DNA from: Cyathus striatus
Lineage: Eukaryota; Basidiomycota; Agaricomycetes; Agaricales; Nidulariaceae
Direction: 5' to 3'
Assembly (NCBI GenBank): GCA_025738555.1
Contig: JAOVFP010000004.1
Span: 1,860,001 to 1,924,000 of the forward strand
DNA: 64,000 nucleotides
The notes below the pieces were generated by a model. It was not told where the DNA came from, ran no database searches, and saw only the letters and a list, made by a program, of their open reading frames with translations. This document shows positions 26,341 to 63,554 of this stretch, piece by piece. Each line of letters starts with the position of its first letter. Position 1 is the first letter of the stretch. Both the position numbers and the translations under genes were made by a program.

Positions 26341-27002
26341 TAGCTTCAAATAACGCTAAACATATATACTTCCGCACGTCCGCAGGACTGCGCGCCCGGC
26401 GCCCCGCATTCAAGCCATTCAAGTTGTCTTCATTGAAGTCGTTTGAAGGTGCACAGAATAAAAATTCACTGCTCACTACCACATTTATGGCAAATGCACA
26501 ACTAAAATACAGATTCAGACCTCGATATTGGTACTTACTAACCTAACTATACTTGTCCGCCCTATAGTGCAAGCCGACTAATTCAATCTTGAGCTTAATC
26601 CAGGAGGCTTGCTTCCGGGAATAAACAGCCACCCAATCTACTACAGCTCCAGGCAAACGCCTTATTTTATTCCCCTCCCTTCAACAACCTTTCTCCACCC
26701 AAAATCGGGTACTTTATACCCATGGGCTGCGAAATCGCCTAACAATTAAGTATAACGGCGAAGGATCACATTCCCGTTAACCATTTGCCGTAAAGTTATT
26801 AAAGCCGTGCTTAGGATAGCAAGACAACTATAGAAGCAGTACTACCGTACTGAAGTCGTTTACTATCATAATCACGTGTCTCGACGTTGGTGCCAATATA
26901 CTGTGATACATTATGCTGTACGTTGGCTGTACATAAGCATAACTTAAACCAAAAGATCACAACATTACAGTGAGTATTTAAACGTTCGATATAAGTTTCG
27001 TA

Positions 27003-27390
27003 ATGTACTACCGAAGAATGTCAGTAATTCACTCTCTTCTCGCCTCATTCCTACTCACATTATCGATGTTTCTCATAAATGCTGAAGTTGAAGGTCAAGC
27101 CGCAACATTCTTTGAAGAATACTCCACCAATTCCACCAAAGCTTTCACGGTAGATACTTCAGCCCTATTGATATCCTGTAGGTCGTTCGTGGAGATATTC
27201 CAGATTAAGGAACAATTTTCTGGAGAGAGAATCTTGGGCAAGAAGAGATAGTTGAATATCTAGAAAATACTACAGCCTTCTACTCAGGTTGCGAGGAAGA
27301 ACAACGGTGCATACTCGTTGTCCACCATGTACGAATTCACACGGAATACCGGAAGATCCTTGAAGTCCTTCGACAACTCGCCTAACAAAT
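27003..27390 (+). pseudogene. N-terminal fragment of a CorA-like family gene
   Basis: Encodes EGQAATFFEEYSTNSTKAF, then after a frame change ILWRENLGQEEIVEYLEN and a Cys-containing stretch. This matches exon 1 of the CorA-like gene at 43501-49712 (QQAATFFEEYCTNSTNAS, LWKENLGHEKIVEYLEN). The frame is broken within the exon (around 27170-27230) and no later exons with membrane segments were found. Confidence 0.75.
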
Positions 27391-28380
27391 TAGTGGCCAG
27401 TAAGTAACTTTTCACTTTGAGAACACATTAAGTATACAACTCACCGTACTTTGGCACTCTGAGCCTAATTTGAAACTTTACCTTCCTATTTGGCCTAAAT
27501 GTATATGTTTCCTAAGGCGGGTGGAAATTAGGTGGAAGACTAAGTACCCGAACCTAAGAAAGGCAAACCTCGTCGTTACACTTGGGCCATATTCAAGTTA
27601 ATATTCTTCCTGTTCCACTGGACGTCAAACACCAAATTCGTCTCGAGTGTGTCTTTTGCAACCAAATGTTACTAATATATTCCCCAAAGGCTTCAAGCTC
27701 AACTTGTTGAAGTTCTTAACGATGAAGGCCCAGACATCGTAACATTCAACACCAGCGTCGAAAATACAAATAAAAAGGTTATGCACTTATCTTTACATTA
27801 AATATTAAGTATAAAATTTACAACGTAGACAACAACATACTTTGAAGGTTGCAGTCTAATTTAAGTTGGATAGCAAGATGATGTTGCAGGCCAATCGCAG
27901 GCGGCAAAAACAACCTTGAAAACAACGCCGATAGCTGTGTGACGTAGTCGTGTGACTGTATTGCATAAGCAATACGGGCAGATGAATAGCCGACCCGGTG
28001 ATGCTGCCTTGTTGACGTTTTGGGCGGTGAATTGAATGACCACCTCTCTACTTCCTCCAAGTCCCAAATATGCCATAAACAGCAGCTCCCTGTGATATTC
28101 TATCCATATTACATTTGCACAGTAATCTGTGCTTAAATGCGACTTAATATGTGCTAGGAGGTTCCAAACACTATGCGCACCATCGAAGAGGAATGGCTTT
28201 GTCTACAGATAGCGGCTGGAAGTATTGTGTGTGCTGAATCAATTTTAAATAAGGTACATTTATCATCATCTTAGTTCCCTAATCTTCATATTATCCGCTT
28301 GTTATCTAACGAGCATAATATAAAATAAGTATGCATTTAATTCCTTTAAAATATAAGTAGTGAATAAGTAGTAGTAAGAA
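27391..28380. other. Unassigned stretch between MFS units B and C
   Basis: No supported gene. Possible degraded continuation of the CorA-like fragment to about 27780. The last 120 bases match the downstream flank of MFS unit B (about 22560-22680). Confidence 0.4.
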
Positions 28381-30697
28381 CTAGATTTCTTCCAATGCCA
28401 GGCCAGAAGGACTCTTCCTAATGTTGTTACTCCACCGCTCTCCTTTGAGTATCAGTGTAAATACTGGTAAAAAAAATATAATACTTCCGTGAACAGTATA
28501 AGTGACCAGTGATCTTCAGGAATCATCACATACCAGATTATTGCATAAATTGTAAAAGACCACTGGAAACCAATCTTATCATGACATGTTTCAAAGAGCT
28601 GTATCACTTAAGTAGCCAGACAAAGACATACTTTGTCACCCAAAGGAATTCTATTTTTAAGTATTAAATTCGTCCAGAATAGAATTATGGGAAAGTTATG
28701 CTCACGAGTAAAATCCTAGAGGCAATGCGAAGAGACGCCCAAAAATGCTGAATGTTTGGCTTTTGTATCAGTAAATACGTCTTCAGAAAAGGCCTGGCCA
28801 TACTGAAAGCATATGCTAACGTCTTTACTCCGAGATTGATGACAATCACTGCAACTGTAGGTGTATGTCGCCGAGGAGACGATTTGATCTCGTGTGGAAG
28901 GTTAGAAATGCCATGAGGTACATTTAAAAATGAAAACATACTTCCAAAGCAAGCAACAACTAATCATTTCATTATATTAGTCAATGCATTGGAATTCTGA
29001 AATGGTCGCTCACCCATTCCAATACAAGGGCCAATAAAGCTCGTAGCGTAATGTATCGTAAACCCATCTGACGTTCAAATATGGTTAAGGCATCTCAATA
29101 CAAACTTCAGCTAAATAACTTACAGCTATATAAAATTAGCCAAGTATTAGCACCAGGAAAAAGAAAGAAGAACCAACATAAGAAGACCAGCAGGAACAGC
29201 AATAACACCCGGATATATACAAAGTAAACGAATTTCAGAGGGTACCACCGCATTAGTCGTGAGAGCTTTCTTTCTCGCGCGTTGCATCATGAGATCCGTG
29301 ACGGGCCCTGCACACATTTCGCCTAATGTTCTAGAAACATAATTAAGTTGATAACGTGGGGGTAGACTGAGCTTCGACTAACGCGCCGATAAGAAGACTA
29401 ATTCCATTAGCCAAGCTGGAAAGATTATTTCAATGATCTCTTTAAGTGCATAGATATATGTACCGGTACCTACCCATCACGGGCGGTGTCAAATTTATAA
29501 ATTCTTGTGAACAAGGTTGCGACAGTTAAACCAGCCCCGATGGAAGCATATGCGTAAGTTACTCCGCTGCGGAAAAGAGTTATTATCAATCAATAATGAA
29601 GGTGAGGTAACCCACTAGTATATTGCTGGAAATGAAACTGTAGGGTATTGAAACATGGAAAGAGGCTTTAAAAAGAAATCTCTGGCTGCAATTCTGCGGG
29701 AAGACGACTGAGACCAGAAGCGAAGCGTTTCCGAATAGGTCGCAAACGTCATTTTTGGCGGGGTATACGGAACAATTGGAAGGGTTGATTCGTTTCCAGT
29801 TCCCGTTTTGCATTCCATCGAGTCAGTTTCCTTTACTTGCTTACTGTTGTCCTTCTCGAAGATTGTTTCGGGAAGAAAAGCCATGCAAAGGATTAGCATG
29901 ACACCTATATAAATATTTAATCATCATTACAAGTTCAGAAAGTACAAGCCAGTGCCACTACTTACCATTAAGAAATGCTGCAACCCAAAAACACCATCTC
30001 CAGCCCATTGATTTAGCCACATATCCTCCGATCTATACAGGAGTTCTTAAGTGGCCCCCACAACCTTGTCGATTAGCACAACTTACTATGGGTGATATGT
30101 GTGCTCCAGTTGTAAGCATTAATGTAAACACCCCCATCGCCTTGCCACGTTGGTGAACATAGAAGAGGTCCACCACAGTACCAGCTACAAGCCCTACAGC
30201 GGCTGATGGACCCAATCCATTTATGGCGCGAGCAAAGATCAAAGTCCCAAAGGACTTCGCATTTGCTGACCCAACGGCAGACATGGTTCCAATAAGGAGG
30301 CATATCAAATATGCCGGCCGCCTCCCGTACACGTCCGCGAACGGGGTAATGACCAGTGGCCCAAGTGCGCTAACACCGATGGCAATTGTTGTCTGGCAAG
30401 TGACGGCCAAGGATTCAATATGAAATTCCTTGGAAAGAAGTACTACAGCTGGACTGATGATCGTTACATTCAACGTCGCAATGAAAGTTATGAGGGCCAC
30501 TTGTGCGAGGGTTACAAGCTTCAACCACTTAGTTAAAGCGTAAGAGATATGAAAATAGACTAAATCAGAGAATATGTCCTAACCATAGGGTAATTTAATG
30601 GGTCAAGAGGTGATTCGGTTGGTTGTGGTACCAGAGGCAGCCCAACATTGTCGTATTTGATGCGAATCTGAGCTGTGGATTGTTCAGAGGATGTCAT
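28381..30697 (-). pseudogene. MFS transporter, tandem copy C (decayed)
   Basis: Same gene as copies A and B; exon 1 starts at 30697 (MTSSEQ.., PLVPQPTESPLDPLNYPM) and exon 2 begins after the acceptor near 30547, with KLVTLAQVALITFIATLNVT and FADVYGRRP. Lesions: the acceptor of the 25-nt intron is GG instead of AG (about 29146), giving an in-frame stop if read through; the exon 11 donor is GC (about 28792); and the last junction creates TGA as in copy B. The stop codon of the chain would be at 28381-28383. Several independent splice losses make it a likely pseudogene. Confidence 0.75.
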
Positions 30698-32480: not shown

Positions 32481-35152
32481 TTACTCGAAGTGCGTGCCAG
32501 TGGTGTCATCCTCTTCGCTTGTCCTAGAGCGTTTCTTGCTCCCTTCTCCCTCATTCGAGTTTTTCACGGGAGAGGGGGTAGAAGTTGAAGTTGCTCCCCT
32601 TCGAACGGTGGATGATCCAGGTGTGGGCAGTGTCGATGAAGCTGAGACTAGAGGGCTAGCTGGTGGAACGAGCCCACCAGAAGTAACGCTTCCACTTGCA
32701 CTGTCCCAAACTTGGGCATACTCCCTCGTCAAAGGCCTTGGGCGTCTTCCTGCAGAAAGAGCTGGCTCGATCGTTTGGAGAGAGGAATCCCTTGGCTGGG
32801 TCTGAGAACTAGCTGTGGGAGGATCTGGCTGGCTAGGTCCGGGGGGGTTGCGGATTGAGAGACCAGTCTCAGCATCCCAAACCTGCGCATTCTCCCTCCT
32901 TACAGGTCTTGGATATCTATGAGTACCGCCTGCGACAGGAGCTGTAAAGAGGAGGCCAGTGTCGGTATCCCAAACCTGGGCATTCTCCCTCTTCAGAGGC
33001 CTTGGCTGCCAGTTGGAAACATTCCCGGGACGAGCTGGATGACTCCAGGGAGTCCCGTCTGGATTAAAACCCATAGACTCCAACCACTCCTCAGGGGCGC
33101 CCCATCTTACCAGAACCCTTCCGGCCTCTTCCACATCGCGTTCACTTCCCTGAGGCATTTCGAGTACGTACGTATAGGTACGATGAGGAGGTGCGCCGTG
33201 AGGGTCCACGCGTAACGTTTCTGCTCTGGTGTGATTAAGCCATTCGTTGGTCTGGTTTCCGGTGGAGGAAGCGTAACGATCAGTGGTGCGGGCGTGGGTG
33301 GGAGTTCGAGCTGAGGTCGAAGTTGGTACTGGGGCGGTGGCAGGTGCCCGGGTAGAAGAAGCCGAAGTAGAGGTTGAAGCAACTAGAGCGGGGGCAGGGA
33401 CTGAAGAAGCCGAAGCAGAGGTTGAAGCAGCAGTTGGCACTGTAGGAGGGGCGGTAGAGGCGGAGGCAAGAGGAGCGAGACCGTTTTGCCTCCTAAACTC
33501 GTCCGAGATATGCATATTATCCCCAGTTAAAAGATCCTGTATTATCACACCATCTTCTGCGCTCGGTTCGGGCAACTCCAACAACGTCCCATACGTCCGT
33601 TTAAGGGGAGCGCCGCGTGCGGTAGGCCGCATGCTTTCGGCTACCGTGTACTCGAGGAACTCGTTGCCTTCGTAGTCCATTGGGTTGAAGGTATCTTCGG
33701 CGGGCGGGGCGGGGTGTCGGGATGTAGAAGCAACGGGGGCGGGGGCGGGGGCTGGAGCGGAAGCAGGGACTGCGGCTGCGGGCACAGTAGCGGAAGTGCC
33801 AGCGTCGGCATTGGCAGCGGAAGTAGACTCAGCAGAAGTATTCTGCTTCTTCGCCTTCTTCCTCTGCTTCTTCTCCTTCCTCTCTCTCTCCTTCTTCTCA
33901 GCCTTTTCCTTCCTCTCCCTCTCCTTCTCCGCCTTGCGCGCCTGCCTCTCCTGCTCTTCCAACTCGCTAAGCTCCTGCATCCTCCTCCTCAGACGCTCCT
34001 TCTGTTCCCTGATTCGCTGCTTCTTCTCCTTCCTTTCCTTCTTCTTCTTGTCCTTGTTGCGAAGTGGTACTGGCAATTGCTGGGATGTAGCCGGAGTCGA
34101 CTCGAATCGCTGAGACGAGGTGGGTTGAGAAGAGCCCGAAGTGGATGAAGCGGTATGGTTGGTTCTGGCGCGGGCATCAGCGACAATCTGTTTGACCTCC
34201 TCAGCTGTAAAAATGCGCATCAGTCAAGCAAACTATGAGACGAAATGAACCAAGCGTACCATTATCATATTCCACATCAACAGCCTGCACAATAACAGGA
34301 GCATCCGTCCTCAACCCATACTTATCAACCGTAAACTGGAAGCGCTTCAAAGGCTCAGCATATTTCGAGTCAATATCTCCCTCGCACTCCTCGTAAAACT
34401 CGCACTTCCCAAAATCAACCACTGCCTTCTCAAATTTCTTCCTTGTTGGAATCTTGTCCCCGTCAACAGGCCAATACATGACGAACGCCTCGGCCTTCTG
34501 AGTGCTCGTGGCGGGGATACGAGCACATGCCATACGCTTGTCTTCCTTGGATGTGAAGTACACTTGCATTTCGTCTCCACCTTCGCGGCGGCCTTCTTCG
34601 ATGGAGATAATGGTGCCGGTGTCAGCGTCTTCACAAGACGCATATGGATGATCAAACTTGTCCATGTTATACTTCATATAGCTATCCGTGGGGATTTGGT
34701 CTACCGGTAGACTGCTCCCGTCGTCGAGGAACATACGAGTAAGAGGTGGACGGGGCTTGGTAGGATCGGGGTCAACGTATTCAACTACGCGGAAAGCTGT
34801 ATTCCCGCTAATCACATCACATCAGCCCAACTACTCATGAGCAACGGGGATAAAAGACGAACATAATGTCCCCTATTCCTTTGTTCAACTCGGAAACTGA
34901 AGCGTAGATGTCCTCTTCGCGCGAGGGAAGCTTGGAGAGAAGTTCGCAGAGGTCGCGGACGCCGGAATTGATTTGGCTATTTTTGTGGATAGTAGAGCAT
35001 TCTTCAGAGAGGCGTTTCACTATGCCTAGTGCTTCGAAGAGTTGGGTTTTGAAGTTGTCTGGTGTGCTGTTGGGAGCGGGTGAACCGCTGGTTTGGCGGT
35101 ATAGACCGCCTGATGGGTTGGTTCCAAGCATGCCTGGATTGAACTTGCTCAT
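32481..35152 (-). CDS. Unknown protein with coiled coil and RENAQVWD repeats
   Basis: Three exons, 35152-34863, 34807-34260 and 34204-32481, with two 55-bp introns, chain into 853 residues. I do not recognise the N-terminal region; part of it, FRVVEYVDPDPTKPRPPLTR onward, looks like a folded domain of about 180 residues. Exon 3 begins with a Ser/Thr-rich stretch and a strongly charged Lys/Glu/Arg helix, KDKKKKERKEKKQ to KKQRKKAKK, predicted coiled coil with nuclear-localisation-like clusters. It is followed by Ala/Pro/Ser/Thr low complexity, then short repeats: RGAPLKRTYG and HGAPPHRTYT, and three copies of RP(L/V)xRExAQVWDxxxG. The C-terminus is KKRSRTSEED-rich. It may be nuclear or a chromatin/RNA-linked scaffold, but this is only inference. 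The start is the first ATG of an open frame preceded by a TA-rich leader. Confidence 0.75.
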
Positions 35153-39368: not shown

Positions 39369-41186
39369 AATCAAGTTTAATATGGCTTTCACTAGCGAAG
39401 CTTTTTCTACATCCTTCAGCATCATGGCTTTTGCACGCCTTCGCTGCCTGGTCCAACCAACCCACACAGCAAATTCAATAATGGTAAGGGGGGCAGTATG
39501 TCGGAAAAATCGAGAACACCATATTTGCCCAGGTATGAACATATCAGGCCATATCAGGCCATCAGGACTTTGGGGGGGAGATATGGTTTAAAAATCAATT
39601 TATCCGGTCTTTTCATTATAGTCAGTATTATATGTAATGAACACAATGATGGCTACAATATGGTGTGGTGCTTTTGATCAGGGAGAAATGGTTCAATAAT
39701 CAACTTATCCACTGTTTCTTATAGACAAGCATATATTATGAATGACCAACATCGTCAGTGAAGGCAGCATTGCTATTAGATTTGCCCACAATATTCACTT
39801 TATTTTGTAATGGTGAACGATCTATATGCACTCCTGCTATTACACAATAGAGGTAACACATATATTTCCGGAATACTATACAAACTGATTATGTACTTAT
39901 AACTACATACCATTTATTCTAAGCGACCCCTACGTCCAAGCTACGTACCCCACAAACGAAGCAAAGGTGGAAATGTCTCAAATAAAATAGGTATTAGAAC
40001 TTACCTAGCCCGTGAACAGCCATGAATGTGCGGCAAAAGGTGAGAGCCTCGAAAAATAATCATTAACTCACCATGTTCAGAACACTAGTGGCACTAGACT
40101 AAGCTAGTAGATAAGAATGACAGTGCGAAGCGGGGACACAGGACAGGGGAAATCGAGTGGGGATGGCACGTATGAAGTCAAAACCTGCTCCCTTATATGC
40201 ATATTTGCAAGATGGCGCTGTGGAGCATTCGCACCCTTGTTCTCCAACCGATGGAGCTGGAATTTGTCTGGAATCCAATTTTACGGCAACAAGAAACATA
40301 ATCGGTTCCGGCGAATGGGTCCCTAAGTCAAACATCATTTAGTCATACTCACAACAAAAGAGCTGTAGGTCCGTCTATCTGTGCCCGCCGCTGCAGCGCT
40401 GAATCCAAATGAGTATGAGACCACATTAGGGGGCAAGTTGGTAACACTTTCTTGCAGCGTTTTTACGTGAATTCATGCAATATATTCACTTTTATTCAGT
40501 ATAACTCATATAATATGATCTGATGCGTGTCCTAGGTATAATGTAAATAGAAATAACCATAGGTAATGTGATATGATATGCATATCTTGAGGCAACCTAC
40601 CAGAATGACCATAAGTGATATCGCCTGATTCTCTTGCCTAGAGTGACATAACAGAAATAATCAGAAATGATATATTCTGATATGCTTTCCTTGGAACAAC
40701 TTGTCGGAAATGATCAGAAGTTAACAGACCAGATATGCATTCCAGCGAGCTACAAATCAGGCACGATTGTACCTTATGTGGGCTGAAATACTAGCTAGTG
40801 GAAAACAAATCAGTACTTATAATACATACCAGGAATTATGTGACCTTATAAGTGGACTGATATGGCTCGCCACCAAGGCTGATCACATCATATAAGTCCA
40901 TCAGGAATATCAGCACCTGATATGGTTTTTACGATTTTTCCGACATACATAATAGCAAAGAAATACCAGAGCTTTGGTGAAGCCGAAAAGGTGCTTTTCC
41001 TGGTCTCTACATCAACATCGAAAAACACCATACTGAAGATAGCCTACAGCACCTTTGTTGGCTGTCTAAAGGACCATTAAACACAAAAAACATGAACACA
41101 AATGAATGCTCCTGGTAGGAAAAACATCGCCACAGCAGCGATCCTGTACTCGTTTCATTAAGTACTTGTTACTAGTTAAATGTTCT
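39369..41186 (-). pseudogene. CorA-like gene 3' fragment, split by an inserted element
   Basis: Minus-strand copy of the last two exons of the CorA-like gene at 43501-49712, carried along in the phosphatase duplication. The first membrane segment (AVAMFFLPGAFIC) is near 41095-41140, FSMVFFDVDVETR and SASPKLWYFFAI near 40946-41050, and the second membrane segment with RRRAKAMMLKDVEK at 39369-39498. The two halves of the last exon are separated by the element at 39499-40945. No upstream exons exist, since the duplication joint is at 41186. Confidence 0.85.
39499..40945. mobile_element. 1.45-kb non-autonomous inverted-repeat element
   Basis: Perfect 14-bp terminal inverted repeats TGTCGGAAAAATCG and complement, bordered by TA at 39497-39498 and 40946-40947, interrupting a CorA-like exon whose uninterrupted sibling is at 43600-43660. 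Imperfect pairing continues inward (CCATAT, CAGG). Subterminal motifs such as CATATCAGGCC and TTGTCGGAAAT recur inside, as in binding sites of a transposase. Only short open frames are present, so it is likely mobilised in trans. TA may be the target duplication, but the sibling differs by a few bases at the joint. Confidence 0.85.
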
Positions 41187-43500: not shown

Positions 43501-46500
43501 TTAATCAAGTTTAATATGACTTTCACTAGTAAAGCTTTTTTCTACATCCTTCAGTATCTTGGCTTTTGCACGCCTTCGCTGCCTGGTCCAGCCAACCCAC
43601 ACAGCAAACACAATGATGGTCAGGGGGGTGGTGACAACAAAGAAATACCAGAGCTTTGGTGAAGCCGAAAAGGTGCTTTTCCCAGTCTCCACATCAACAT
43701 TGAAAAACACCATACTGAAGATAGCCTGCGGCACCTTTGTTAGTTGTGTAAAGGACTGTTAAACACAGAAAAAACGAACGCAAATGAATGTTCCTGGCAA
43801 GAAAAACATTGTTACAGCAGCGATCCTGTACTCGTTCCATTAAGTACTTGTTACTAGTTAAATAAAAACCGTCATACGCACGTAATCATAGATGCGCTAT
43901 CCCTCTGCGCATCCTCTGCAATTTTGGCCGTATCTCTTGCAATTCTGACATTGGTATCACTGTCCCTCTGAAACCGCAAATTGAAAGCCAGATTTATCTG
44001 GATATCAACACGTTTCTGATATCCCTGATACCAGAGATGAATGTTTCTTGCATACCGTTCTTTGGCTTGCAAAGTCTCCGTGACGTATGTAAATGTCGTC
44101 TTCGGGATACCATTAGCTCGATGGAGAACATCCACGACGGATAGAAGGAACGCTATCTGATTGATGAATTCCTCATACCGTGATACATCAATCGCTATGC
44201 GTTGGGCCAGACCATGTATATCTCGTATATGCGAGTCTTCGATTACAGGCAATTGAACATGTCTCGCTTCCTAACCAAACCCCAATTAAGCAGTGATTAC
44301 AATACAGTAGAGCAATGAAAAGCACCCACAGCCTCTACTACGGATCCTGTTGAGCGGTGAACATCGGAACCCAAATGGTTGTCCAATATATACCCAAAAA
44401 TCAATAAATCAATAATGAAATGGCTTGATAGTTTCGGGAAAGTAAGGTTCTTGACTTGTTGTAGCACCGCAATTGGAGCATGTGCAACAAAATACACCGC
44501 TGATTGGGTAGGCACATTATGTATAAATTGAACCATGGGATGATGCCCATCCATAGTTGCATCTAAATAGTAAGCCCCTTCTTTTTAAATTTCAGTGTCA
44601 TTGACAGTCCCATGAAATTATGGAAAGCCGGAGCACCACGCTCTAAGCCATCAATTGAAATCAAATTCCGCGCTTCGGCAGTTTGCTTGCCGATAACGGA
44701 TCTTGATTTAAAATTCGGCTATTCTCTCTCGGTTGCTAAATTTCGGTTCGCGTCTTCGGGCGTCGGGAGTCGGGTGTTGGTTGGGAGTATTTTCTAGTAT
44801 TCTTGAGAATTATAACTATTATCGAGAACCATTTGAGACCAAATCAAATTAGTACATAGGTATCTATTTTAAATACATTGAGAAGAAATTATTTGCATTA
44901 ACGCCGTGCGCAACGATCTGGATGCACATATGATGGTACCTCACAAACATGCGAGAGCGTAGTGAATAGATGTAATTGAGTTCCATACTAACCTCTCAGT
45001 ATCAACAAATTTACGATATTTATACACTTTAGATACAGCTGTAACATAGCATTACTAGGGTACTCAGTATTCTGGTAAAGGTCTGGAACAAGTAATTGAG
45101 TACTGTAGAGGTAAACAATGTGTTGATGCCTAAACAAAGAAATTAATTACTGAGTTGGTGAATATCTGTCCTACCTTGGGTGTTCTAGGGTGTTGAAAAG
45201 AGGGGAAAAAATTTACTAGATTGCGAGTGTGTAGGTACAGGGATTTTATATAAAATTAAAATAAAGAGTGCACTTAATAAGGAATAAAACAGAAATTAAG
45301 AGTGCTTAAATCATGGATTTATGAAAGAAAATGGTAAGGTATGAAACAGAGAACATACCAATGATTAAAAAGAAAATTTAAGGAATAAAACATGGGAGAG
45401 ATAGACACGGCCTTTGGTAAAGCAAATTATAGTATTCAGCAGGTCTTGGCAGTGCTCGATACTGACGATCTTGAGTTCTTATTGAGTAATTGCGGCATTG
45501 AGGGCGATACAGGAGTGTCAGCGATGGAGAGAAAATGAGGGAGGAAGTGTGAGCGAGCGCGAACAATGCGAACAAACGCGTCGACGCGCGCATCACTTGA
45601 TTACGTAATATAAATTGTAAAGTATCGATTTTTGTAGTGCAGGCGAAATGCCTGCTCTATAGGTGGAGAATACAAAAATAACTGTTTTTGCTTTGACATG
45701 GTAGACCCATATCTCATTGTCTGACAATAAGCAACACTGCAGTTCAGAACCCCATAAATGTCGACTATCTACTCACATTCTTTAACTCAGAAGTAATCCT
45801 ATATCCCTCAAAACCTTTACAACTTTGCTATAATCAACCTTTAAATTTTTTAACTACATACACTCTGAAACATAACAAAATTTATAAATCTATTGATGAC
45901 ATTCTGCTGTGATTGCACATGAAACCCCTCATATTCAGTATTCTAATTAGCAGAAGACCTATTAATATAGCACAATAATAATAAACCACTTGCCAATTCA
46001 ACTGGTCTAGAGTTTGAACCCTGCCAACATCCAATTCTATGAGCCACTATCTTTGGAACCATTTCACCAGTATCAGAACCTTCTAGACGGAACCAATACA
46101 CCAGCATCTGACCGGTACAAAAAGAGAGATAAGCAAATATTTTATGAAGATATGTGATTTGGAAAAGCACAGCAGTCCTAATAGCACAATGACCTCATCG
46201 TTATACTTGCTGCTACCCCTCGCATTTCCTCCGCCTTTCATTGCTATGGCGTTAAACTCAAGTCTCACAGTAGCTCATAGTAAAGCTATAGGTTTCTCCC
46301 AACAGTACAGTAGAACATATATAAACTGAATGTATTTATGTTTCTTTCCCCAGATAATTGGACCACAATTACATTCTGACTGCACTTCTGCCTGTTTTCC
46401 CCCCTCTCCCGAACCATTGCTGAGACCTGTATCATTCTACAACTACTGTCAGCAAACATCTTCCCATTTCGACTTCAAGTCTCCTGGTCACCCCAGTATA

Positions 46501-49500
46501 CTATTCTCTCTTGGACCTTATCATTCCCACTTCGACATCTCGCTAGAACAAAAGCAGTAGACTGAAACTACTGCACTCTGTACACTTTGTATCCCTTCAG
46601 GTTATGACGTCTTTCGCGATACCATTTGTTAACAAATAACTCATGAGCCATGAACTTTGCATGTAATTCCAACTGCTAACAGGGACTTTGCATCAAGTGT
46701 CTATACCTCTTATAATGGCTCCTAACAGTTCTTTACTTCGCTTCAAGCATATAAGCTTCATATAAAGGCCCACTACTTTGTTTCAAACATATAAACTTCG
46801 TCTAAACTTTCCCCACTTCGTTTCAACTGTGTACACCTCTTCTATTGGATTCTAAAGGCTCTCTACTTCGTTGTAAGTGTCTATACATGTGTGGATACAC
46901 TTGGTCTAAAGGCTCCCTACTTCGTTTAAACCATCTAAACTGTGTCTTGTGGCTCCCTACTTTATTGCACGTGTCTATACCTCATATAAAGGCTCCCTAC
47001 TTCGTTTCAAGTGTTTGCACTTGGGCTAAAGGTCCCCTGCTTCATTTAACACATATATACATTGTCTTATGGCTTCATACTTTGTTTCAAGTGTATAAAC
47101 ATTATTTAAGAATATAGTATACTTCATCTAAAGGCTCTGTATTTCATTTAAATCATATACACTTCGACTAAAAGCCCTTATGGTGTCTCCCACTTCAGAC
47201 ATGCAGTATCTACGTCATCCTGAGACCATAACTTCATCTGTATGTCGAATGCATCAAGTCTACATTATTATTTCATCCACTGTGTTACATACCAATTCCC
47301 TTCCTACTGGGAAATGAATGCTAAGACACCCGGAGGGCATGGGAGAACTATAACGGAAACCTGAAGTGAGTACGGGTATGGGAACAAGAGTAGAAGTGTG
47401 GAAGTGAACCGTGGCTTCAGCGTATGTGCTGCACCACCTGGATATCCCCAGGGAATGGTTCTTATTTTGAGGAAGATGATATTCAACAGAGGAAGACATT
47501 CCAGAGTATAAGAGAGGGCTTTGCCACTACACTAGGCAGTGGGAGAGAAACCCGAAGGAAAACCCAGAGTGGGTTTCAGAACTTAGAGTAGGAAGAAAGT
47601 GTACAGAGTTGATATGAATACTGAAGACTACCTAGTACATTTGGAAGACTATTTATATGTACTAGTAAGATGTAGATACTAATCCGGAGACAGAATACTA
47701 AGTGTAAGTAAACAAAATAAAGACTGGGCAAAGAGGAGTAGTGGTGCAAATGACGCGCTCAGAATGAAGAATAAGAAATTAAACTACATTGACCATAATG
47801 AAACGTACAAGGGAGAATGGAAGAGAGGAGTAATGTTATAATGACGCGGTGAGGCTGTCATAAGAGAAACTACATATCTGAAGTATCCGATAGAAAACCC
47901 GATGGGTTCCGGGTACATTCCCGGGTGGGAACGTCAGGAAGTGTAAACCCAAAGCGGGTACATTCCAGGAATGGACCAGGTATGTTAGAAGGTCACGTGG
48001 GAACATCGGCACAATGTATCCGGACACGGATATAACACACTGCTTCATTTATTCAAAGTCTATATCATTACAATGCTCCCTGCCTTGTATGTGCCATGAT
48101 TATATCATTCATTTAAATCTGTATCATTATGGCGTCGCTTGCTTAGTATTTGCAGTGATTGGATCGTTTTGCAGGTCCCTTGATTCTTTGATTATTAGTT
48201 GTGTACACTGTAGTATACATAACACATTTAAATATATGAAATCCACGTGTTACTCACAACCAACAGTGCCCATGGCACTAACAGGTATGGGCTTAGGTGG
48301 GTATCATAGGTATGGGTCATGCTCAGAGTACCCATAAGTTACCTGTGTTATTGAATTTGTACTATAGCATTCATATTATTGAATTGTTAATTTCACGCTC
48401 AGTGACGCTGATGCACTCAAACCTAGGTGGCCAAAAATTGATCTCAAATGATGTAAACCAGAAAACCTCAGGAATGGCACAAAGGTGAAATTTAACAGTG
48501 AGATATTCCCGGGACCTAGGCAACGCGTACCCAAAGCAGTGGGCAACTTCAATGTGGGCTTTGCCACAAGTTCAATTCTGGCCCTATTTTATACTTCACA
48601 TTGTCTATTAGTATGCTTAAAATCACAGACTTGAACTAATTCAGATTAAGTAGGCTCGAAAAATAATCCCCCGAAACCGGTAATACTTACATATGTATAA
48701 ATGCTCATTTGTGCCTACTGACTACGAGCTAAATATCAGCCTATATTTGTGCAACTAGGAACCCTAAGTTTAATATGCCTACTTGTAAGTAACATTAGTG
48801 CAGTATAAGGGACCGTAAGCTCAAGTTGTGACCGCTGAATTGCAACTCCAACAAAATCTCCCAAGCCACTGAGGCCTGTGGCTGACCCCCAACCCCCGAC
48901 TCTCGACTCCTGACGCCTGAAGATGCGAACCGAAATTTAACAACTGAAAGAGAATACCCAAATATTAAATCAAGATCCATAATCAGCAAGCAAGCTGCCG
49001 AAGCGCGGAATTTGATTTTAACTGATGGCTTAGAGCGTGGTGCTCCAGCTTTCCATGTGAAATTACTATTAATTTAAATGAACTAACCGATTACCGAAAT
49101 CTCACTTTCTCCATATGTAGTGAATGAATATTGTAGAATCGATGAATAAATTTTATGTGAAGTGCGATATACGAAGGTAGGCGATAAATCATAAGCATGC
49201 TGAAGCTTTGTCATTGTCTTCGGATTTACTTGAATTGCTATCTTGTTGTGAGGAACAAGTGGAATGGTTGGAGAAGTAACTGAGGAAACCAACCATAATG
49301 ATAAGTATCAGCTGTAAGGTCTCGGGACTTCAGAAAACTGGTCATTAGTTCAATATGTGCCATCAGTATGGCAGTAGTAATGAGAGGGATAAGTGAAAAG
49401 ACATACAAGACAGTTAACAACGGCTTGGAGGCAGTTTCGTGGACCTAACGTTCACTATCAGTTTATCTTTCCAGTGGTTCACAATGCACATGATTAGAAG

Positions 49501-49712
49501 GCTACATTTTCTAGATATTCGACTATCTTTTCATGCCCAAGATTTTCTTTCCACAGAATTGTTCCTTGATCTGGGATGTCTCCACGAACCACCTCCAGGA
49601 TGTCAATGGAGGTCTCAACTGTGGAAGCATTTGTGGAATTGGTGCAGTATTCCTCAAAGAATGTGGCCGCTTGCTGTTCAGATTCTGGACATGTCACCTT
49701 CAATTTTAGCAT
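43501..49712 (-). CDS. CorA-like two-TM membrane protein, TE in intron 4
   Basis: Eight exons match the intact relative at 61834-63554. Exon 1 49712-49506 starts MLKLKVTCPESEQQAATFF; exon 2 49444-49407; exon 3 49337-49294; exon 4 49237-about 49088; then an intron of about 4.5 kb; exon 5 from about 44580, exon 6 to about 43889, and the last two exons to 43501. The C-terminus has two membrane segments, TIAAVTMFFLPGTFIC..FSMVFF and LWYFFVVTTPLTIIVFAVW, then a basic tail, the layout of fungal CorA-like proteins but without a GMN motif. A helical region LAFNLRFQRDSDTNVRIARD precedes TM1. The N-terminal region is of unknown fold. The exon 4-5 junction is unsure: the expected donor leaves the frame off by one; the GTAATC donor three codons earlier with AAAAG acceptor restores it. 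Confidence 0.7.
45590..45665. repeat. GATTACGTAAT block with hairpin, shared with 15.0 kb
   Basis: GATTACGTAATA followed about 40 bp later by GCAGGCGAAATGCCTGCTCTA, a hairpin; the same order is at about 15028-15112 (GCAGGCAGTTTACCTGCTCTA). Sequence 5' of it (ACGCG..GCATCAC / ACGCG..AACGTGATC) is also alike. Probably the end of a dispersed element. Confidence 0.5.
46700..47180 (+). repeat. Degenerate tandem repeat, unit about 38-40 bp
   Basis: Around a dozen units built on GGCTCCCTACTTCGTTT followed by CAAGTGTATA-like and CTTCATCTAAA. Units differ by substitutions and small gaps. It lies inside the 4.4-kb element and has no coding signal. Confidence 0.75.
47270..48055 (-). repeat. Inverted copy of the repeat at 130-960
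   Basis: Read on the minus strand it follows 130-960 nearly base for base over about 790 bp, with small indels. Here many CG dinucleotides remain (for example CACCGCGTCATT, GAGCGCGTCATTTG) where the other copy has TG or CA. Confidence 0.9.
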
Positions 49713-55347: not shown

Positions 55348-56766
55348 ATGCTGCTTAAAGTTACACGACCTGAGATGGACCTTCAAGATGCAAACCTGTT
55401 TGAGATTTGTACACATCATCCAGATACTATAAATCAGAAGACCTTGATGGACATATTGGAAATCAACACCAACCTCCTGGTATATGAAAATAAAGTTGAG
55501 TGGAAAGAGAACCTCGATCATGATGAGGTGCTAAATTATCTGGAAAATGTATGTGAACGTCATCTGAAGCCGAAATAAGAAAACAGTGGCTAACGTTTAA
55601 CTTGATGAAGGTGAAAAATGAAAAGCCAAAGTTCATGGTGTTGTATGTTTTCCGTGAAAATGATTCCATACATCATTCTTATACATTGTGACGGCAATTA
55701 GTTTTATCGCGAAAGAGTGGAATGAGGATATCAAAAATCATGGTTGGTTCCCTTTCTTCGAAACACAAGTATATGGTTGCAGTATTAAGTACATATGGCT
55801 GAATACATGAAATAGTATCGCAAATCAATCCTCAAACAACGGTCAAACTTCAAAATATCTACAATCTATCCACAGCATTCGTGCAACAGCTTACTTTCCC
55901 AAATATTTCACCTATGCATTACAATTATTTTACAAGTCGTAATGCTCAAGGTGATGTTATAGGAATCGGTGAGTGATCAACATTTCTCATTGTTTTCTGG
56001 TTAAACTGCAATCCTCTGTAGAAGGAACTTACTTCTGCGACACCATATCAAACATGGATGTTCCATTGGTTCACTTCACCTACGATTTCCTAGCCGGGTC
56101 AGCCGTGTATTTTATTTCCCGTTATCCACGGAGCTTGGCCAAGGAGTGGCTGAAAGACTATAAAACTGAGAAACTTTCAACACCGTTTACTATTGATCTC
56201 ATTTTTGTTAAACACCATCTCGACTCCATCATAGGAGGTTTTCATAGTAGGTCCACATCAATATTACAAATAGTAAGTTGCAATTCACCATATCGCATGT
56301 ATACTGCCTTTGTGGTTCTAACAACCATGTCATATATCAGGAGAGCTGTCATAGTCAGCTATCGAAAACCGACATTTCAAATATAAAATATCTTCATAGT
56401 GAAATGAAGGGTTTAGATGCTACAATTGCACAATGTGAAGCTCTGGATATTCAAATATCTTTTATTATCTCTATTATCGACACTCTGAAGCAAGGCAGAG
56501 CGATATCGCAAGTAGAGCATATACATATCATGGAAACATTACAATCTCATCAAAGACGCAAAGCATGTACTCTAAATTGGCTCCTAAATTTCCGAAAGCG
56601 CCTTGATGCACAATTGAACTATGCATTTCAGCTGTGTACTGAACAGAGGAGAGAGGAAACCCTGAAACCTGCAAATAGTACGGATCAGAATGTTGAGGGA
56701 GTCAAACAGAAGTACGTACTGAGGATAATTGTGTTATCACTGTCGAAGCTATTCACTGATATATAA
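55348..56766 (+). pseudogene. CorA-like family member without membrane segments
   Basis: Starts MLLKVTRPEMDLQDANLFEI; exon 1 ends at about 55548 with LENV-type donor. Later exons are visible: QINPQTTVKLQNIYNLSTAFVQQ near 55828, EGTYFCDTISNMDVPLVHFTY from about 56022, and SCHSQLSKTDISNIKYLHSEM to LNYAFQLCTEQR up to 56766. Exons 2-3 between 55560 and 55780 are hard to recognise. The two C-terminal membrane segments found in relatives are not seen downstream, where only a short hydrophobic remnant (about 56815-56860) is present. Either a soluble truncated variant or a decayed gene; I lean to decay. Confidence 0.65.
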
Positions 56767-58244
56767 AAACCATGAAGTGAACCTACGAAACCGATTGCTG
56801 GCTATTTAATAGTGTTCTTTTTCGTTCGTGTTTTATTTTTGTCACTGCTTCCAACTCTTGATTGAAACCTGTTTCTTGTAGTTTCTCTTTTCTTTCACGT
56901 TTGTTTACTGGTTCTTTTCTACTTATGGCTAAGACCTTTGACCTGTTAGAGAAAAAACCAAGAACAGAGAATCCTTAGGAAGAAGAGTATATTAATTTAC
57001 TCGATAATGAGGATGGATGACTGTATCTATTTTGAATGCACTACGTAGCAACTGGCAGGCAATGAGTGTAGTAACAATTACTTAGTGTCGAAAACTTGAA
57101 AATGTACTTATCATCTTGGTGGACATACCATCGAAATAGTGGCATCACTTGTCGTACTCGCAGTTCCTGCTTGATCCCTGTGTTGTTCATTAATATATTC
57201 AACATCTCCGTGGTTTCTGGGGGCGAAGACAGATTTTTGCATTGTTAATGCTTGCAATGCGAGACTGTGACTAGCATCGTCAATGCGTGAACGGCCGCGT
57301 CCATCAGGAAAATCTGAATCTTACATACATAAGTTCAACTACATACTTGCGACTTTCTCTGGCTAGCCGCAATTGCATTTAAATCTTTGCGTTGCTTAAG
57401 TATTTAAATTGACGGTTTGGCCAAGGTTTGGTAGGCATTGCCTCCGATCGCGAGTGGCTGCCTGGTGATATTTGGCGTTATATTAAGCGCTCAAGACGTG
57501 AAGCCGTTCGAACCCCTGAGCCATGATTTAGGGCGGTAATATAAGTACTATAAGTATAGTATCCCCGCCTAAAATAGGTTTTTTTGCCTCTTTCCTCTTT
57601 CGTGTAGCTTCAACAATTTAGTGGCTACGGTATCCTAACAGAAGCTGTAGGCAGAGAGCAGTGCTGAGCGGTCAACGTAAAATAGTGAACCCCGAGTTGA
57701 TTGAATGCTCTCGGACGCTTTGTAGGTATTCTTAGCGCATAATGACAAGTAAAATGAACCATAAGAGTCACACAGTGGCGCCTACAGCGTCTGATTCACA
57801 CGATTAGCCCGACAGTTCACATCTTGTATCTATCCTGATTTCATTTATCGTGAGTCAAAAATAGTACACCATTTCGTGAGTTTTGAAGAGTCGCTTTCCT
57901 CTGCACTGATCTAGTATGGAATAAATTATAAATAACGATAGATACTTGTTGTAGCAAGCTAGTAAGCAACATGAGAAGTAAGCTAAGTCCAATCGGACAT
58001 TCAGACTGTGACTGTGATCATAGCTGTAAACATATACTAGCGATATCTGGTTCCCAAATATATGGCGACTGAGCACCTTTCCAAGATTTTACAGCACTTA
58101 CCACACGCGCCGATGGCTTCGGATAATAGATTTCTGGTGGCAGCCTGACTGATATAAAAGCAACGAAATGAAGGGACCTGCACTCCCACACTTCATCATT
58201 TTCTCTTCTTATCACAGTTTCCACACTTACAGCTGCTTTCAGAA
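56767..58244. other. Intergenic region
   Basis: No gene seen. The last 150 bp are the duplicated CorA-like promoter (compare 55218-55347). A lone plus-strand stretch near 56810-56900 could be the degraded end of the preceding copy. Confidence 0.4.
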
Positions 58245-60046
58245 ATGCTTCTTAACGTTACACGAGCAGAAATGGACCTGCAAGAGGCAAGTCTGTTTGA
58301 GATTCGCACATGCCATCCAAATGCGAAAAACTGGAAGACCTCGATGGACATATTGGAAATCAATAATGACTTTCTAACAGATGAAGATAAGGTGCAAAGC
58401 GTGTACTCTAAACTGGCTCAAAAATTTCCGAAAGCGCCTTGATGCCAAAATAAACTACGCGCTTTGGATGTGTACTGAAGAAAATAGAGAGGAAACCATG
58501 AAACCAACAAATATGAGGCCGGGAACGGAATTGGAGTCGGATCAGAAAGTTGAGAGAGTTAAACAGAAGTGCGTACAATAATTGTGATATCATTGTTGAT
58601 GTCACCCCCTGACATATTTAAACTCTGAAGGAAACCTATGAAAACGAGTTCCGTCATTGCAGCAACATTCTTTTTTGTTCGCATTACATTTTTTTCATCG
58701 TATCCAAATTTTGATTAAAGCTCATTTTTTGTAGGTGCTTTTCAGTCTGATATCCTTATATGGGATTTTATACATGGCTAAGACTTTCGACACTCCCCAG
58801 AGAGATTGAAAGAGCGCATGAACAACAGGGAATCCTTAGAAAGAAGAACATATAAATTTAAACTTGAATCATAGGATGGATGAATGTGTCCATCGTGTAG
58901 TCACTCGCAAATTTGACGACTGAAATTGCTGTGGACGCACAGAGGGACAGCTCGTCTATGATAACGTATGTGGCTGTAACGCTTTTCATCGATTTTATTC
59001 TGGGTCTATTTTAGAATTGCAGTGGTTACCATGTTCTTTTTACCAGGAACTTTTGTATGCGTACGGATCCCTTTCTCAACAATAACTATGACGATCAATA
59101 ATTCTCACATGTCAATTATAGGCTGTGTTCAGCATGGTGTTCTTCAATGATGGGGTAGACCCCAATGAGAACAATATTTTCTCAGTGTCAAAGAAATGGT
59201 GGTACTGGATCATTTCGACCGATTGTTCGGTCACACGCCACACGACGTCTAGAAACAGAACAATTTTGACAAATGTCACGCATCCCGAGGAGCACCGAAC
59301 AAAGGTTCAGTGAAACAAAAAAAGGCCAAAATTAGACACAAGAAATTGGTTTTTTCATTATTAACTGTATGTACTGGATTTCTAATGTTCTTCCCAAGCT
59401 TCTGTAAAATACAGTGTTTTAAAAAAATTTCCTCTCCCCCTGCCTAAGTTCTGGAGTTGTGTCAGTTAGTAATGTATCAACCATTTCAACAAGCGTGCTT
59501 TCTGCATCTGTTGCGAGTTGAAGTCCAAAAAATGAGTCACGGCCAGTGGAGTTTTCGATGTGATCCAATACCGCTGTCTTTAATCTAACTTTCGATGTTA
59601 TATCTCGTGTTGATTGGATAAAAATGACATACTGTACTTACCTCAAATTCTATAAACAAAGTGTTTGTTGTGTGTATTCTCTACTATTACTAAATAAATA
59701 CTACTCATTGTTACAGTGTTGGTATTGGTACTTATTGTTTGTCAATTGTAGAAATACTTGGTTTTGTTTTTAGCAAGTCCCATAGTTCGCTCTTAAAGGG
59801 TATGAACAAATTTGTATGATGTCACGCACTAAAATAGGCCACGAACAGAACAATGAACTGAAAATTTCGGTCACACAAAATGTCAGCGAACAATCGGTCG
59901 AAATGATCCAGTATTCCCTCGCTGCAACTATTCCGTTGACCATTGCAGTGTTTGCTGTGTGGTGGTTCTGGACAAAGCGAAGGAGAGAAGCAAAAGCTTC
60001 CTCATTGAAGCTTGAAGGTGAACCGGAGAAGTTGAAGATTGTTTAG
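58245..60046 (+). pseudogene. CorA-like gene with internal deletion and MITE insertion
   Basis: Begins MLLNVTRAEMDLQEASLFEI. After TDEDKVQ (58395) the sequence jumps to the coiled region (CKACTLNWLKNFRKRLDA), so the middle exons present in the copy at 55348 are deleted; GCAAAG is shared at the joint. Downstream are TAEIAVDAQRDSSSMIT (near 58920-58965), the first membrane segment IAVVTMFFLPGTFVC (near 59015-59060) and FSMVFFNDG..SVSKKWWY (59125-59204). There the element 59205-59911 interrupts the last exon; SLAATIPLTIAVFAVW and a basic tail resume after it and stop at 60046. Confidence 0.85.
59205..59911. mobile_element. 707-bp MITE in a CorA-like exon, TA target duplication
   Basis: Perfect 25-bp terminal inverted repeats beginning CTGGATCATTTCGACCGATT, flanked by TA at 59203-59204 and 59912-59913. 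Removing it restores the reading frame of the membrane segment seen in relatives. Same family as 25853-26340: shared GAACAAAGGTTCAGTGAAA and ATGTCACGCAC subterminal motifs. No coding capacity. Confidence 0.95.
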
Positions 60047-60092
60047 TAAGAATTTGGACAACTGAATACTCAAAGCAAGTTAGCAGAAGTGC

Positions 60093-61624
60093 CGGGCTTG
60101 ACGAAAAAGAAAAGAAACTTTCGGATCCGAATAGTATCCGTGCAGATAACGGAAAGATAAACGGCCTCAACGTTCAATGCGGTCACACGCTCGGCATGAG
60201 ACCCGTTGTCGGCCAACCGGTTACGGGGACAATATTGTATGATGTTTGGCAGCAGCCTTGCTCGGACATGAGGCAATAGCTAAACATAAGCAAAAACCGT
60301 CTAACACTACTACTTACCCTGAGCGCACTACCTGCGTATATTGTCTTCAGATACTTGCTAGATCTCTGCCATCTTGTATCCACATATCGCATCTACTACG
60401 CTTTGTGTTATAATTTTGTGATAAGTCATTTCTGTAAATAATGACTGAAATCAGTGATTACAACTTGATCACAACTACAAGTTGGAGTAAGTGCTTTTCC
60501 ACTGTCCTGGTGGCGTCGCATGCCACTCGCAAAATAGCTGGGATTAGAAATAAGGGTGACACATTTGAATATTGAACTATCTAGCTTTCGTTGTGCACGT
60601 AGGCATTCAGATTTAAGCTCTATAAAAGGTGGGAAATCTCAGGAGCATGGCTTCATTACTCTACCTTGCTCATGCGACAGTACGAGAAAACAGGCCATTC
60701 GTACTGGCGAACACTCGCAATTCTTATTTAATCACTATTTCCACACTCGTTTAAACGTTTAAACTTACCAATCAAGAACGATCGTCTCGATGATTGAGTA
60801 GGAGAAGCCGTGGGGAGATGTTCACCAAGCCAGGTGAGCACTTCAACACTATATGTAGAATCGCATTTAATCTCTCGTTATATCTGAAGCGTGCACCTAT
60901 CCTTATATGCGGTCTTTTATATCTATTTGTTGAGTACTTTAACAAACTATCCTTATTGTATTTAATGATACTTATATGTCCATATAGATTGTCGTCTTAG
61001 ATCGCCAACATTCCTTTTATGTTCAATATTTACACATACTCACATTTTTAATCAAGAGGAGCTGTCGAATACAGGTCACAGCGCATGGCTAATTCTATTA
61101 ACAGAGCAAAAACACTGGATCTGATGCCGCTCAGGTTTTGAAGGCATCTATTGAAAGTGGTGTTTTGTCTAATTCATATAACTCATCACAGAATCGATTT
61201 ACGACACAGGGAAAGCGATACATAGTGCAAACAAACTATAGGCGAGCTTAAGAATCGCAAGACTCAGCCAGCAGTACTTTCCAATCAAACCTTACTGAAA
61301 CGGACTGCATAATAAGTAGTTCTTTTTTTTGTGGAGCTATAACGAGATTGGTACAAATACTTCTTAGACTAATCACTACATTCTACACTACATTTAGGTT
61401 GGAACAACATAATAAATGTGTTCCTACGTTCATCGCTATGATAACTGTGTAGTAAATAAGTACTTAAACTGAAATAGCGCTGGGCATAACCGATTTGGTG
61501 CCGAAGCCGACCAGGCAGCCATCCGTGCGTCTACGGCGTCTTGGGATACACACCGGATTGATAAGAGGTGAAACGTCGGCTGCTATTCGGATCCGAACGT
61601 TTCTTTTCTTTTTCGTCTATGCTC
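60093..61624. mobile_element. 1.5-kb inverted-repeat element with 9-bp target duplication
   Basis: Inverted repeats of about 130-150 bp: GACGAAAAAGAAAAGAAAC followed by TTCGGATCCGAATAG near 60100-60140, and the complement near 61578-61620. The direct duplication CAGAAGTGC lies at 60084-60092 and 61625-61633. The interior has only short open frames. The duplication length resembles that of the element at 44623-49057, but the termini are not clearly the same family. Confidence 0.8.
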
Positions 61625-61833
61625 CAGAAGTGCAGTTTTACGCAAATAATACACAGTTCGCATGCTTCGCAAAGAGGGTAAGACTAGATCCTTCAACCGT
61701 CTCAAATCTAGCGACAACTGTTGTGTTTCTTAGTTAAGGAACATTTAACACTCTCTTCAGTGGATCAAGTAATGAATCAGTATGGTATATATGATAATGT
61801 ATCTGATGCTCTGTGTGTAAGAACGCTATACAT

Positions 61834-63554
61834 TTAAATAAGTTTGCCCTTTCTGTACAGGCATTTTTCCGTCTCCTTTAGAATCTTAGCTTGTGCATTC
61901 CTTCGTTGTCTCGTCCAACCGACCCACACCGCAAAGACCGCCAGGGTAAGGGGAGCAGTGATAGCAAAGAAATACCAGAGTTTTGGAGAAACTGAAAAAG
62001 TACTCTCCCCAGTTTCGGTATCAAGCCCACTATCAAAGAATACCATACTGAAGACCGCCTGCAGGATTTATTAGTTGTCTAAACAATCGTTGAATAATAA
62101 TATACAAACGCAAACAAATGTTCCAGGTAGGAAAAACATTGTCACCACCGCAATTCTATACTCTTTCAGTTTAGTAATTACTTGTCGAGTCAAGACCATA
62201 ATACGCACGTAATCATAGATGAACTGTCCCTCTGAGCATCCTGTGCAATCTTCGCCGTATCTTTTGCAATCTGAACATTGGTTTCACTGTCCCTCTGGAA
62301 TCGTAAATTGAATGCAAGATTTATCTGAATATCAAGACGTTTCTCGAAATCCCTGTACCAATTAAGTGTGTATCTCGCACAACGTTGTTTGGCATGCAAA
62401 GCCTCCGTGATGTATGTGAGCGTCGATTTTGGGAAAGCATTAGCCTCCTTTATAACCTCGACCATAGATTGAAAAAACGTCAGTTGGCTGCAGAATTCTT
62501 CGCAACGTGATGCACTAGTGCATAACTGTTGTGATAACCCATGTAGGTCTCGTATATGAGAGTCATTGATTGTGGGTAATTTAGCATGTTTAGCCTCCTG
62601 ACATAAAGGCGTTAAGGATGGGTTCTGGTGGAATATAGTCACCTACAGCTCTTATAATTTGATGAGTTAAATCGTAAAAATGAACGCTAATTTGGTCTGT
62701 AAAAACAATTTCAGAAAGCAATGAATCGATAATGAAAGGGGCTGGAAGCTTTATGACACCAAGCTGCTTGACTTTGTCTGATAGCTCAGATGGAGCATGC
62801 CCAACAAAATACACCGCTGAATGAGTTGGTATATCATATGAGAAGTGAACCATGGGATGGGTCCCTCTCAAGAGCGTATCATAGTAATAACTTCCTTCTG
62901 TTTCAGAGTTTCAGATATGTTACTGGTAAGACACATTATGCGACTTCTGTAAGAACTGACCAATTCGAGAAAGCATCCCATTGTCATCATAATTAGTGAA
63001 GCAACATTGCTGTACGGGTGTATAAGATTTATATGAGGTTCGATAGACGAAGATAGGTGATATGTTATAAGCATGTTGAAGCTTGATCATTGTTTGAGGA
63101 TTGGCAAGAATTGCTAATGTGGTATGAGAAGAGTCGGCAAGATAAAGATTAAAAATCAACCATATAATCCAGATTTTACGTCCCCACTATACCGGGATTT
63201 CAGGAAGCTGAGTATTGAACGTTCATATTAGGCAAGGTGTCTTTTTCGGGAACATACAAAACGGTCAGCGCCGGCTTGGAGTCAGTGTTCTGGACCTAAT
63301 TCTTATATTAGCTTGTATGCACATACTAACTCAACAGTCTAGAAGATTACGCTTTCTATATATCTTACTACTTCTTCATGCCCAAGATTCCTTCTCCAAA
63401 GAGCAATACCTTCACCAGGAGTATCTCCACAAACAACCTCAAGGATGTCAATGGAGGTTTTTACCATGGAAGCTGCTCTGGAGTTGACACAGTTTTTTTC
63501 GAAGTCATATGCAGCCTTAAGTTCTGAGTCTGGATGTGCAACCTTTAGCTGCAT
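61834..63554 (-). CDS. CorA-like two-TM membrane protein, intact copy
   Basis: Eight exons chain to 450 residues without a break: 63554-63351, 63295-63258, 63207-63161, 63113-62961, 62897-62647, 62597-62209, 62155-62110 and 62058-61834. The N-terminal region carries TSIDILEVVCGDTPGEG and LWRRNLGHEEVVRYIES, then LANPQTMIKLQHAYNISPIF and MVHFSYDIPTHSAVYFVGHAP. A long helical stretch ends in RFQRDSETNVQIAKDTAKIA, followed by TM1 TIAVVTMFFLPGTFVC..FSMVFF and TM2 LWYFFAITAPLTLAVFAVW and a basic tail. The end resembles CorA-like Mg2+ transporter domains in fungi, yet the GMN selectivity motif is absent, so ion transport is not assured. It is the reference for reading the damaged relatives in this window. 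Confidence 0.8.

Follow-up and report, generated by a model that had tools for sequence, protein, structure and literature searches.

The CorA Mg2+ channel of Thermotoga maritima (PF01544) is built from a funnel, a stalk and a C-terminal helical hairpin and carries the tripeptide GMN. ZntB and CmaX also belong to the CorA family, and the filter tripeptide of ZntB is GIN. In fungi, Alr1/Alr2/Mnr2 and Mrs2 are likewise CorA relatives with two transmembrane segments (TM1 and TM2); they keep GMN and lie apart, whereas the family described here shares the funnel, stalk and hairpin but is clustered and has SMV in place of GMN, a tripeptide by which it also differs from ZntB and CmaX. Its genes were found in and around a 64,000-nucleotide window, C4:1860001-1924000, of a genome of 107 Mb in 24 contigs. 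With a probability of about one half, we propose that they form a tandemly expanded fungal CorA-fold family, likely making a pentameric pore with an SMV filter that serves another ion, or is under another control, than in standard Mg2+ uptake. Direct support comes from the fold of the soluble part and the helical hairpin in the structure model, the loss of GMN, the cluster itself, ratios of nonsynonymous to synonymous substitution (dN/dS) below 1, and synteny with annotated Cyathus striatus sequences.

A passage of PMC4945025 describes (F/W)GMN as essential for Mg2+ transport. According to a review of eukaryotic Mg2+ transporters, only GMN-bearing sequences were kept for its tree (PMC13022745), so that proteins devoid of the motif fall out of view. 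In the open-licence literature, judged mostly from titles, no title or abstract opening dealt with GMN-less fungal CorA families.

Gene structure and predicted fold

Copy I (61834..63554, minus strand) is an intact gene of 450 codons in eight exons (63554-63351, 63295-63258, 63207-63161, 63113-62961, 62897-62647, 62597-62209, 62155-62110 and 62058-61834). All seven introns, 47-63 bp each, are of the GT-AG type in a splice model checked on the DNA, and spliced alignment with the C. striatus protein P0001 confirmed the exons, bar one alternative splice choice before TM1. Exon 7 encodes the first half of TM1 (IAVVTMFFLPGTFVC) and exon 8 the SMV tripeptide at the place of GMN, a loop, TM2 and a basic tail; the reading of exon 8 rests on the alignment of homologues, the splice model and a by-eye, ungapped comparison with the genome's own GMN-bearing CorA genes.

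The model of P0001 matched CorA/ZntB-like structures with a good fit over model residues 12-363, and its N-terminal domain alone also gave a structural match to the N-terminal domain of CorA. The first-pass annotation of this DNA had recognized no fold in the N-terminal half, a view that the structure search overturned; a match to a metal transporter, which that annotation had itself named as evidence against its proposal, was found for the N-terminal half in the search run on the P0001 model. The N-terminal alpha/beta funnel and the stalk helices that define the CorA fold are present in the model, and its C-terminal helices (residues 367-390 and 410-459), to which exons 7-8 of copy I align, are the predicted counterparts of the two transmembrane helices that the CorA family demands, a pair that is apparently incomplete in the divergent copies G, J and K described below.

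Identity to CorA in the structural alignments is about 8%, and PF01544 was matched by neither P0001 nor P0002. The cluster was not among the matches listed in a PF01544 search of the genome, a search of PDB sequences with P0001 yielded no match at E ≤ 1, and NCBIfam matched none of the three proteins submitted; P0012 carries the precomputed annotation PF26616. A profile search returned two bridging relatives above the PF01544 cut-off of 27, namely P0133 (30.8 bits) and P0141 (28.0 bits). Given the weak direct match and these bridging relatives, the family is therefore regarded as homologous to CorA and CorA-folded, standing outside the transporter family defined by GMN.

Replacement of the GMN motif

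The three residues that close TM1 were compared in an alignment, A1, of 62 of the 89 database homologues. They read SMV in the majority of rows and STT in seven Dothideomycetes, with SMP, AMP or other tripeptides in the remainder; GMN occurs in none of the 60 A1 rows with letters at this position. An anchor pattern found in 141 of 148 homologues gave SMV in 56 and STT in 20, some singletons being wrong anchors, and GMN at the anchored offset in none of the 141. Scanning the second halves of all 148 proteins revealed AMN at the filter place once (P0076); two proteins contained GMN, but away from that place. In the genome that holds the window, SMV is found in 12/12 family copies that keep the segment, and the motifs FFLPGTF and PLTxxVFAVW without GMN are as the first-pass annotation had described them. 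Judged from the sequences, then, the GMN (GxN) signature of the CorA / 2-TM-GxN family is absent.

The same genome also has four GMN-type CorA genes lying apart, on C2 (LWGMN), C15 (two) and C19. The context is YFGMNF on C15 and C19, and in the second C15 gene GMN follows an apparent intron. By eye, FLPLTLLTGYFGMNF of these genes pairs gap-free with FLPGTFVCAVFSMVF of the family. That the clustered proteins are ordinary transporters of Mg2+, Zn2+ or another divalent metal that do not need GMN would agree with their CorA/ZntB-like fold and with database labels of the type 'Cora-like Mg2+ transporter'. We judge this decidedly unlikely in view of the requirement for GMN in Mg2+ transport stated in the passage cited above (PMC4945025) and of the four CorA genes that keep the motif in the same genome.

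Organization of the cluster

Sixteen places, within a set of copies lettered A to R, were read by spliced alignment. Copies A, B and C (C4 1.454-1.509 Mb) and J, K, M, N and O (C4 1.930-1.959 Mb) lie outside the window, D to I inside it, and Q and R on contig C14. Whole-genome searches with the C-terminal part, the N-terminal part and a Crucibulum homologue gave matches on C4 and C14 only, the copy counts from these searches being lower bounds. The six places at which the first-pass annotation had seen at least six members or fragments were all matched by tblastn with exon translations (D, E, F, G, H and I), and its proposal of a locally expanded CorA-like family is supported; the family also extends beyond the window.

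Copies F, I and B are open through the membrane hairpin, as are M and N once their splice choice is corrected; frameshifts called in exon 6 of the latter two were rejected as splice-choice artefacts. The frameshift that the script forced in B is confined to the last dozen codons, relative to the P0001 tail. Copy A is open through the hairpin only with insertions of 0.7-1.7 kb spliced out, C has one frameshift, and O has two stops plus insertions, while D, E, H, Q and R are fragments or bear lesions and G, J and K make up a divergent subfamily. An eight-exon plan, earlier ascribed to all members in the window, was found in B, C and F as in I (seven introns) and in similar form in M and N, where the first intron is ambiguous and the N tail is an artefact of the query; in D, E and H the damage is too great for any plan to be seen.

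Copy F (43504..49712, minus strand) is a full-length open frame of eight exons which, in spliced alignment, is free of stops and frameshifts. The C. striatus protein P0003 is 91% identical to it over its length and 95-98% identical, per tblastn piece, to the window at 43.6-44.6 kb. Since the best-matching proteins of the window come from C. striatus, the genome is taken to be that of a close relative of this bird's-nest fungus. Within intron 4 lies a 4.4-kb transposon-like element with terminal inverted repeats (44620..49056, no strand assigned), whose repeats measure 161 bp and are 88% complementary, with an apparent 8-bp target duplication, TGAAATTA; owing to this element the intron is 4507 bp long as opposed to the usual ~60. 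The idea that the transposon had killed copy F was rejected, since the element is intronic and the stops in one tblastn row are intron read-through. With the spliced frame open, the breakage by transposon insertion put forward earlier is not demonstrated.

The broken copies within the window are D (27051..27265, plus strand), a piece of an N-terminal exon disrupted by a frameshift and by two in-frame stops; E (39370..41154, minus strand), a C-terminal piece that is frameshifted and carries insertions; and H (58192..60022, plus strand), a remnant with its middle missing and one stop. The first exon of H (58245-58397) is G/J/K-like and its C-terminus resembles M/N/Q, as if a deletion between paralogues had produced it.

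The G/J/K subfamily

Copy G (55348..56930, plus strand, 3′ end approximate) has a CorA-like N-terminal domain and helices followed by a divergent C-terminus, and its paralogues are J (C4:1930631 on) and K (C4:1933472 on). All three have the N-terminal domain and stalk in common with the other family copies, with 33-38% identity to I and O and 68-75% among themselves, and QRDSSSMIT, FLPGTF and SMVFF are not present in them. Read by analogy, exons 7-8 encode a single hydrophobic stretch and terminate early. A 4-nt shift in G and an indistinct splice site in J render the 3′ ends uncertain and allow for decay there. P0146 and P0148, the annotated C. striatus relatives of this subfamily, end before the C-terminal region.

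These copies hint at non-conducting partners. Taken further, the family might consist of pseudo-channels, either CorA-fold regulatory or dominant-negative subunits that do not conduct, or sensors anchored in the membrane that rely on the funnel domain. The absence of GMN from its place would suit this explanation, as would the soluble-part dN/dS of 0.38-0.46 in G, J and K, which have no pore motif and apparently no TM2. However, the invariant or near-invariant columns across the family concentrate at P0001 357-391, with TM1 residues among the most conserved, a pattern more in keeping with a functional pore than with a mere anchor, and the uncertain reading of the G/J/K 3′ ends also counts against it. 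We thus find the pseudo-channel explanation doubtful.

Selection, distribution and age of the locus

Values of dN/dS were estimated by the Nei-Gojobori method for eight paralogue pairs, with codons aligned via the splice script and 95% bootstrap intervals; pairs with A, C or O take in decayed copies. The estimates were 0.18 for M-N, 0.32 for I-O, 0.38 for G-J and J-K, 0.46 for G-K, 0.50 for A-C, 0.62 for B-C and 0.71 for A-B. All eight intervals lay below 1, the highest upper bound being 0.98 (A-B), and among the three parts of the protein computed separately the membrane part had the lowest dN/dS in seven of the eight pairs. As far as sequence can tell, the conserved TM1 and the constrained membrane part favor a working membrane pore. 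Sixty-codon windows rose above 1 in G-K (2.25), A-B (up to 1.4) and B-C (1.06), which, with 2 to 7 synonymous changes, neither proves nor excludes local positive selection.

The C. striatus comparison covers annotated proteins, such that copies missing there may be unannotated. Besides P0003 for F, the closest counterparts are P0004 for N (92%), P0005 for Q (94%), P0146 for G (87%) and P0148 for K (88%), while P0001 and P0002 are best matched by copy C (84 and 82%). The idea that copy I has no C. striatus relative was rejected because of P0130, whose identity in two pieces amounts to 82 and 97% with I, and to 90 and 92% with O. For a neighboring gene, questin-oxidase copy 1, identity to P0149 is 87%, against 87-94% for the family counterparts. 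P0003, P0004, P0130, P0146, P0148 and P0149 are listed with one 333,500-base C. striatus contig, and the locus is therefore taken as syntenic; P0001, P0002 and P0005 sit on other contigs. Of the fast turnover claimed in the first-pass annotation, the fragments and decayed copies stand, but F, N, Q, G, K and the I/O pair have close C. striatus counterparts.

Direct homologues occur in Agaricales, Dothideomycetes and other ascomycete groups, and several Agaricales have several copies, so the family is not single-copy elsewhere. In Flammula, Coprinopsis and Crucibulum, contigs of identical size point to clusters. A tree of 76 rows was built from 66 database rows, hand-picked among the 148 homologues, and ten own copies; it includes three of the eight C. 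striatus proteins, leaves out copies A, D, E, H, Q and R, and is rooted for drawing only. One branch (100/99) sets the ten own rows, together with the three from C. striatus, apart from Crucibulum; Coprinopsis marcescibilis has four rows in one group and Ephemerocybe three in another, and two long-branch joins (Cordyceps-type/Aspergillus rows; the P0004 group) were flagged. The pattern looks like birth-and-death evolution in several lineages. Proteins named by their sources 'Cora-like Mg2+ transporter' or 'Notoamide biosynthesis cluster protein M'' belong to the same family, with no difference seen. The second name is carried by the Psilocybe cubensis homologues P0042 and P0046, and apparently goes back to a biosynthetic cluster after which a protein of the family was called.

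Groups confined to single lineages in the tree, and a tandem multi-copy cluster with decayed copies, are also what one might expect of recognition or cell-death pores that serve non-self recognition, namely vegetative or heterokaryon incompatibility, or some other kind of biotic conflict. A precedent of sorts comes from Morchella importuna, where bulk-segregant mapping, as reported in PMC8940278, left two vegetative incompatibility candidates, one of which, mimpvic32, has a CorA-like domain and eight reported introns. This ascomycete protein (765 amino acids in the text, 773 in Table 5 of the same source) was assigned by PF01544, has its sequences in GenBank under OL303980 and OL303981, and is at most a candidate relative of the GMN-less family; PMC8940278 was the sole paper found on it in the open-licence literature. 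PMC12720139 mentions one CorA-like/ZntB annotation near a temporally associated single-nucleotide polymorphism, and the whole words CorA and transmembrane are both absent from the text of Dyrka 2014. HET, NACHT or another known incompatibility domain was found by Pfam in none of 20 homologues scanned singly and none of the 62 in A1, two sets that overlap. Gene-average dN/dS exceeded 1 in 0/8 pairs, the cluster is syntenic in C. striatus, and the nearby NOD-like receptor (NLR) gene is weak evidence, for which reasons a role in recognition seems unlikely and the arms race suggested in the first-pass annotation is not supported. A combined scheme, in which a CorA pentamer with a replaced filter was re-purposed into duplicating gated pores for recognition or regulated cell death, with single-TM proteins of the G/J/K type regulating the two-TM pores, strikes us as quite improbable.

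Neighboring genes

The NLR (window 2846-6424, minus strand) comprises two successive frames, the first of the NPHP3_N/NACHT type and the second carrying ten WD40 stretches. NPHP3_N gave 617 first-look candidates in the genome, and all 150 that were scored matched, so that at least 150 exist. With an even spread and clustering ignored, the chance of one NLR per 64-kb window is ~8.5% with 150 and ~31% with 617. Because such domains number at least 150 and the nearest family fragment is 20 kb or more away, the proximity adds little weight; as evidence of recognition it was discounted as weak, though this is not proof of chance.

A tandem questin-oxidase-like pair (PF14027; 50475-52472 and 52671-54734, minus strand) is 57-64% identical by piece. 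Copy 2 is just 60% identical to P0149, with no closer C. striatus protein among the matches listed. Another tandem duplication (37172-39133 and 41317-43274, plus strand; 88-96% identity, spacing ~4145 bp) carries a His_Phos_2 (branch 2 histidine phosphatase) domain in its second member, and CorA-like fragment E sits between the duplicates. Three similar open reading frames on the minus strand (19983-20480, 24366-24818 and 30036-30578), apparently repeated copies, resemble by eye the start of major-facilitator transporters. Low-complexity long open frames at 32484-34821 (minus strand), Lys/Glu- and Ala/Pro/Ser-rich, possibly stem from a mobile-element gene; Pfam gave no match for 34204-34821.

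Discussion

We propose that each protein would place an alpha/beta funnel domain in the cytoplasm, joined by a long helical stalk to a C-terminal two-helix membrane hairpin, and that the subunits would most likely assemble into a pentameric pore, as in CorA. Because SMV replaces GMN in the outer selectivity ring, this pore may conduct with changed selectivity, passing a different ion, or ions under different control. Standard Mg2+ uptake would be left to the genome's GMN-bearing CorA genes, which can do that job. Copies would arise and decay by tandem duplication in a long-lived locus, on average under purifying selection.

Several observations weigh against this proposal. The structure model is a monomer prediction in which the hairpin is not superposed on CorA, structural alignments that include it (to residue 432) having a root-mean-square deviation of 12-15 Å and Foldseek TM-scores on the query being just 0.24-0.43. 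A Foldseek search restricted to the N-terminal domain returned a single row at E ≤ 1e-3. Since PF01544 is matched at E ≤ 1e-3 by only 2/62 members of A1, the sequence tie to CorA is weak and mediated. A hydrophobic filter residue could equally well go with no conduction, and the second membrane segment of G/J/K is apparently missing. The A/B/C paralogues are weakly constrained (dN/dS 0.50-0.71), and A-C is the pair in which the membrane part is not the lowest.

What the locus presents is a real cluster, an ordinary fold and a missing signature, and its interest lies in the loss of GMN and the possible one-helix paralogues, not in an unknown domain. Some members are named Mg2+ transporters by their sources, though none of the homologues examined was found to carry the residues regarded as essential for such transport. 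With the apparent one-helix paralogues, the idea of regulatory subunits becomes testable. If the family conducts, it would show how the CorA scaffold works once its selectivity ring is gone; if it does not, it would be a set of misnamed proteins.

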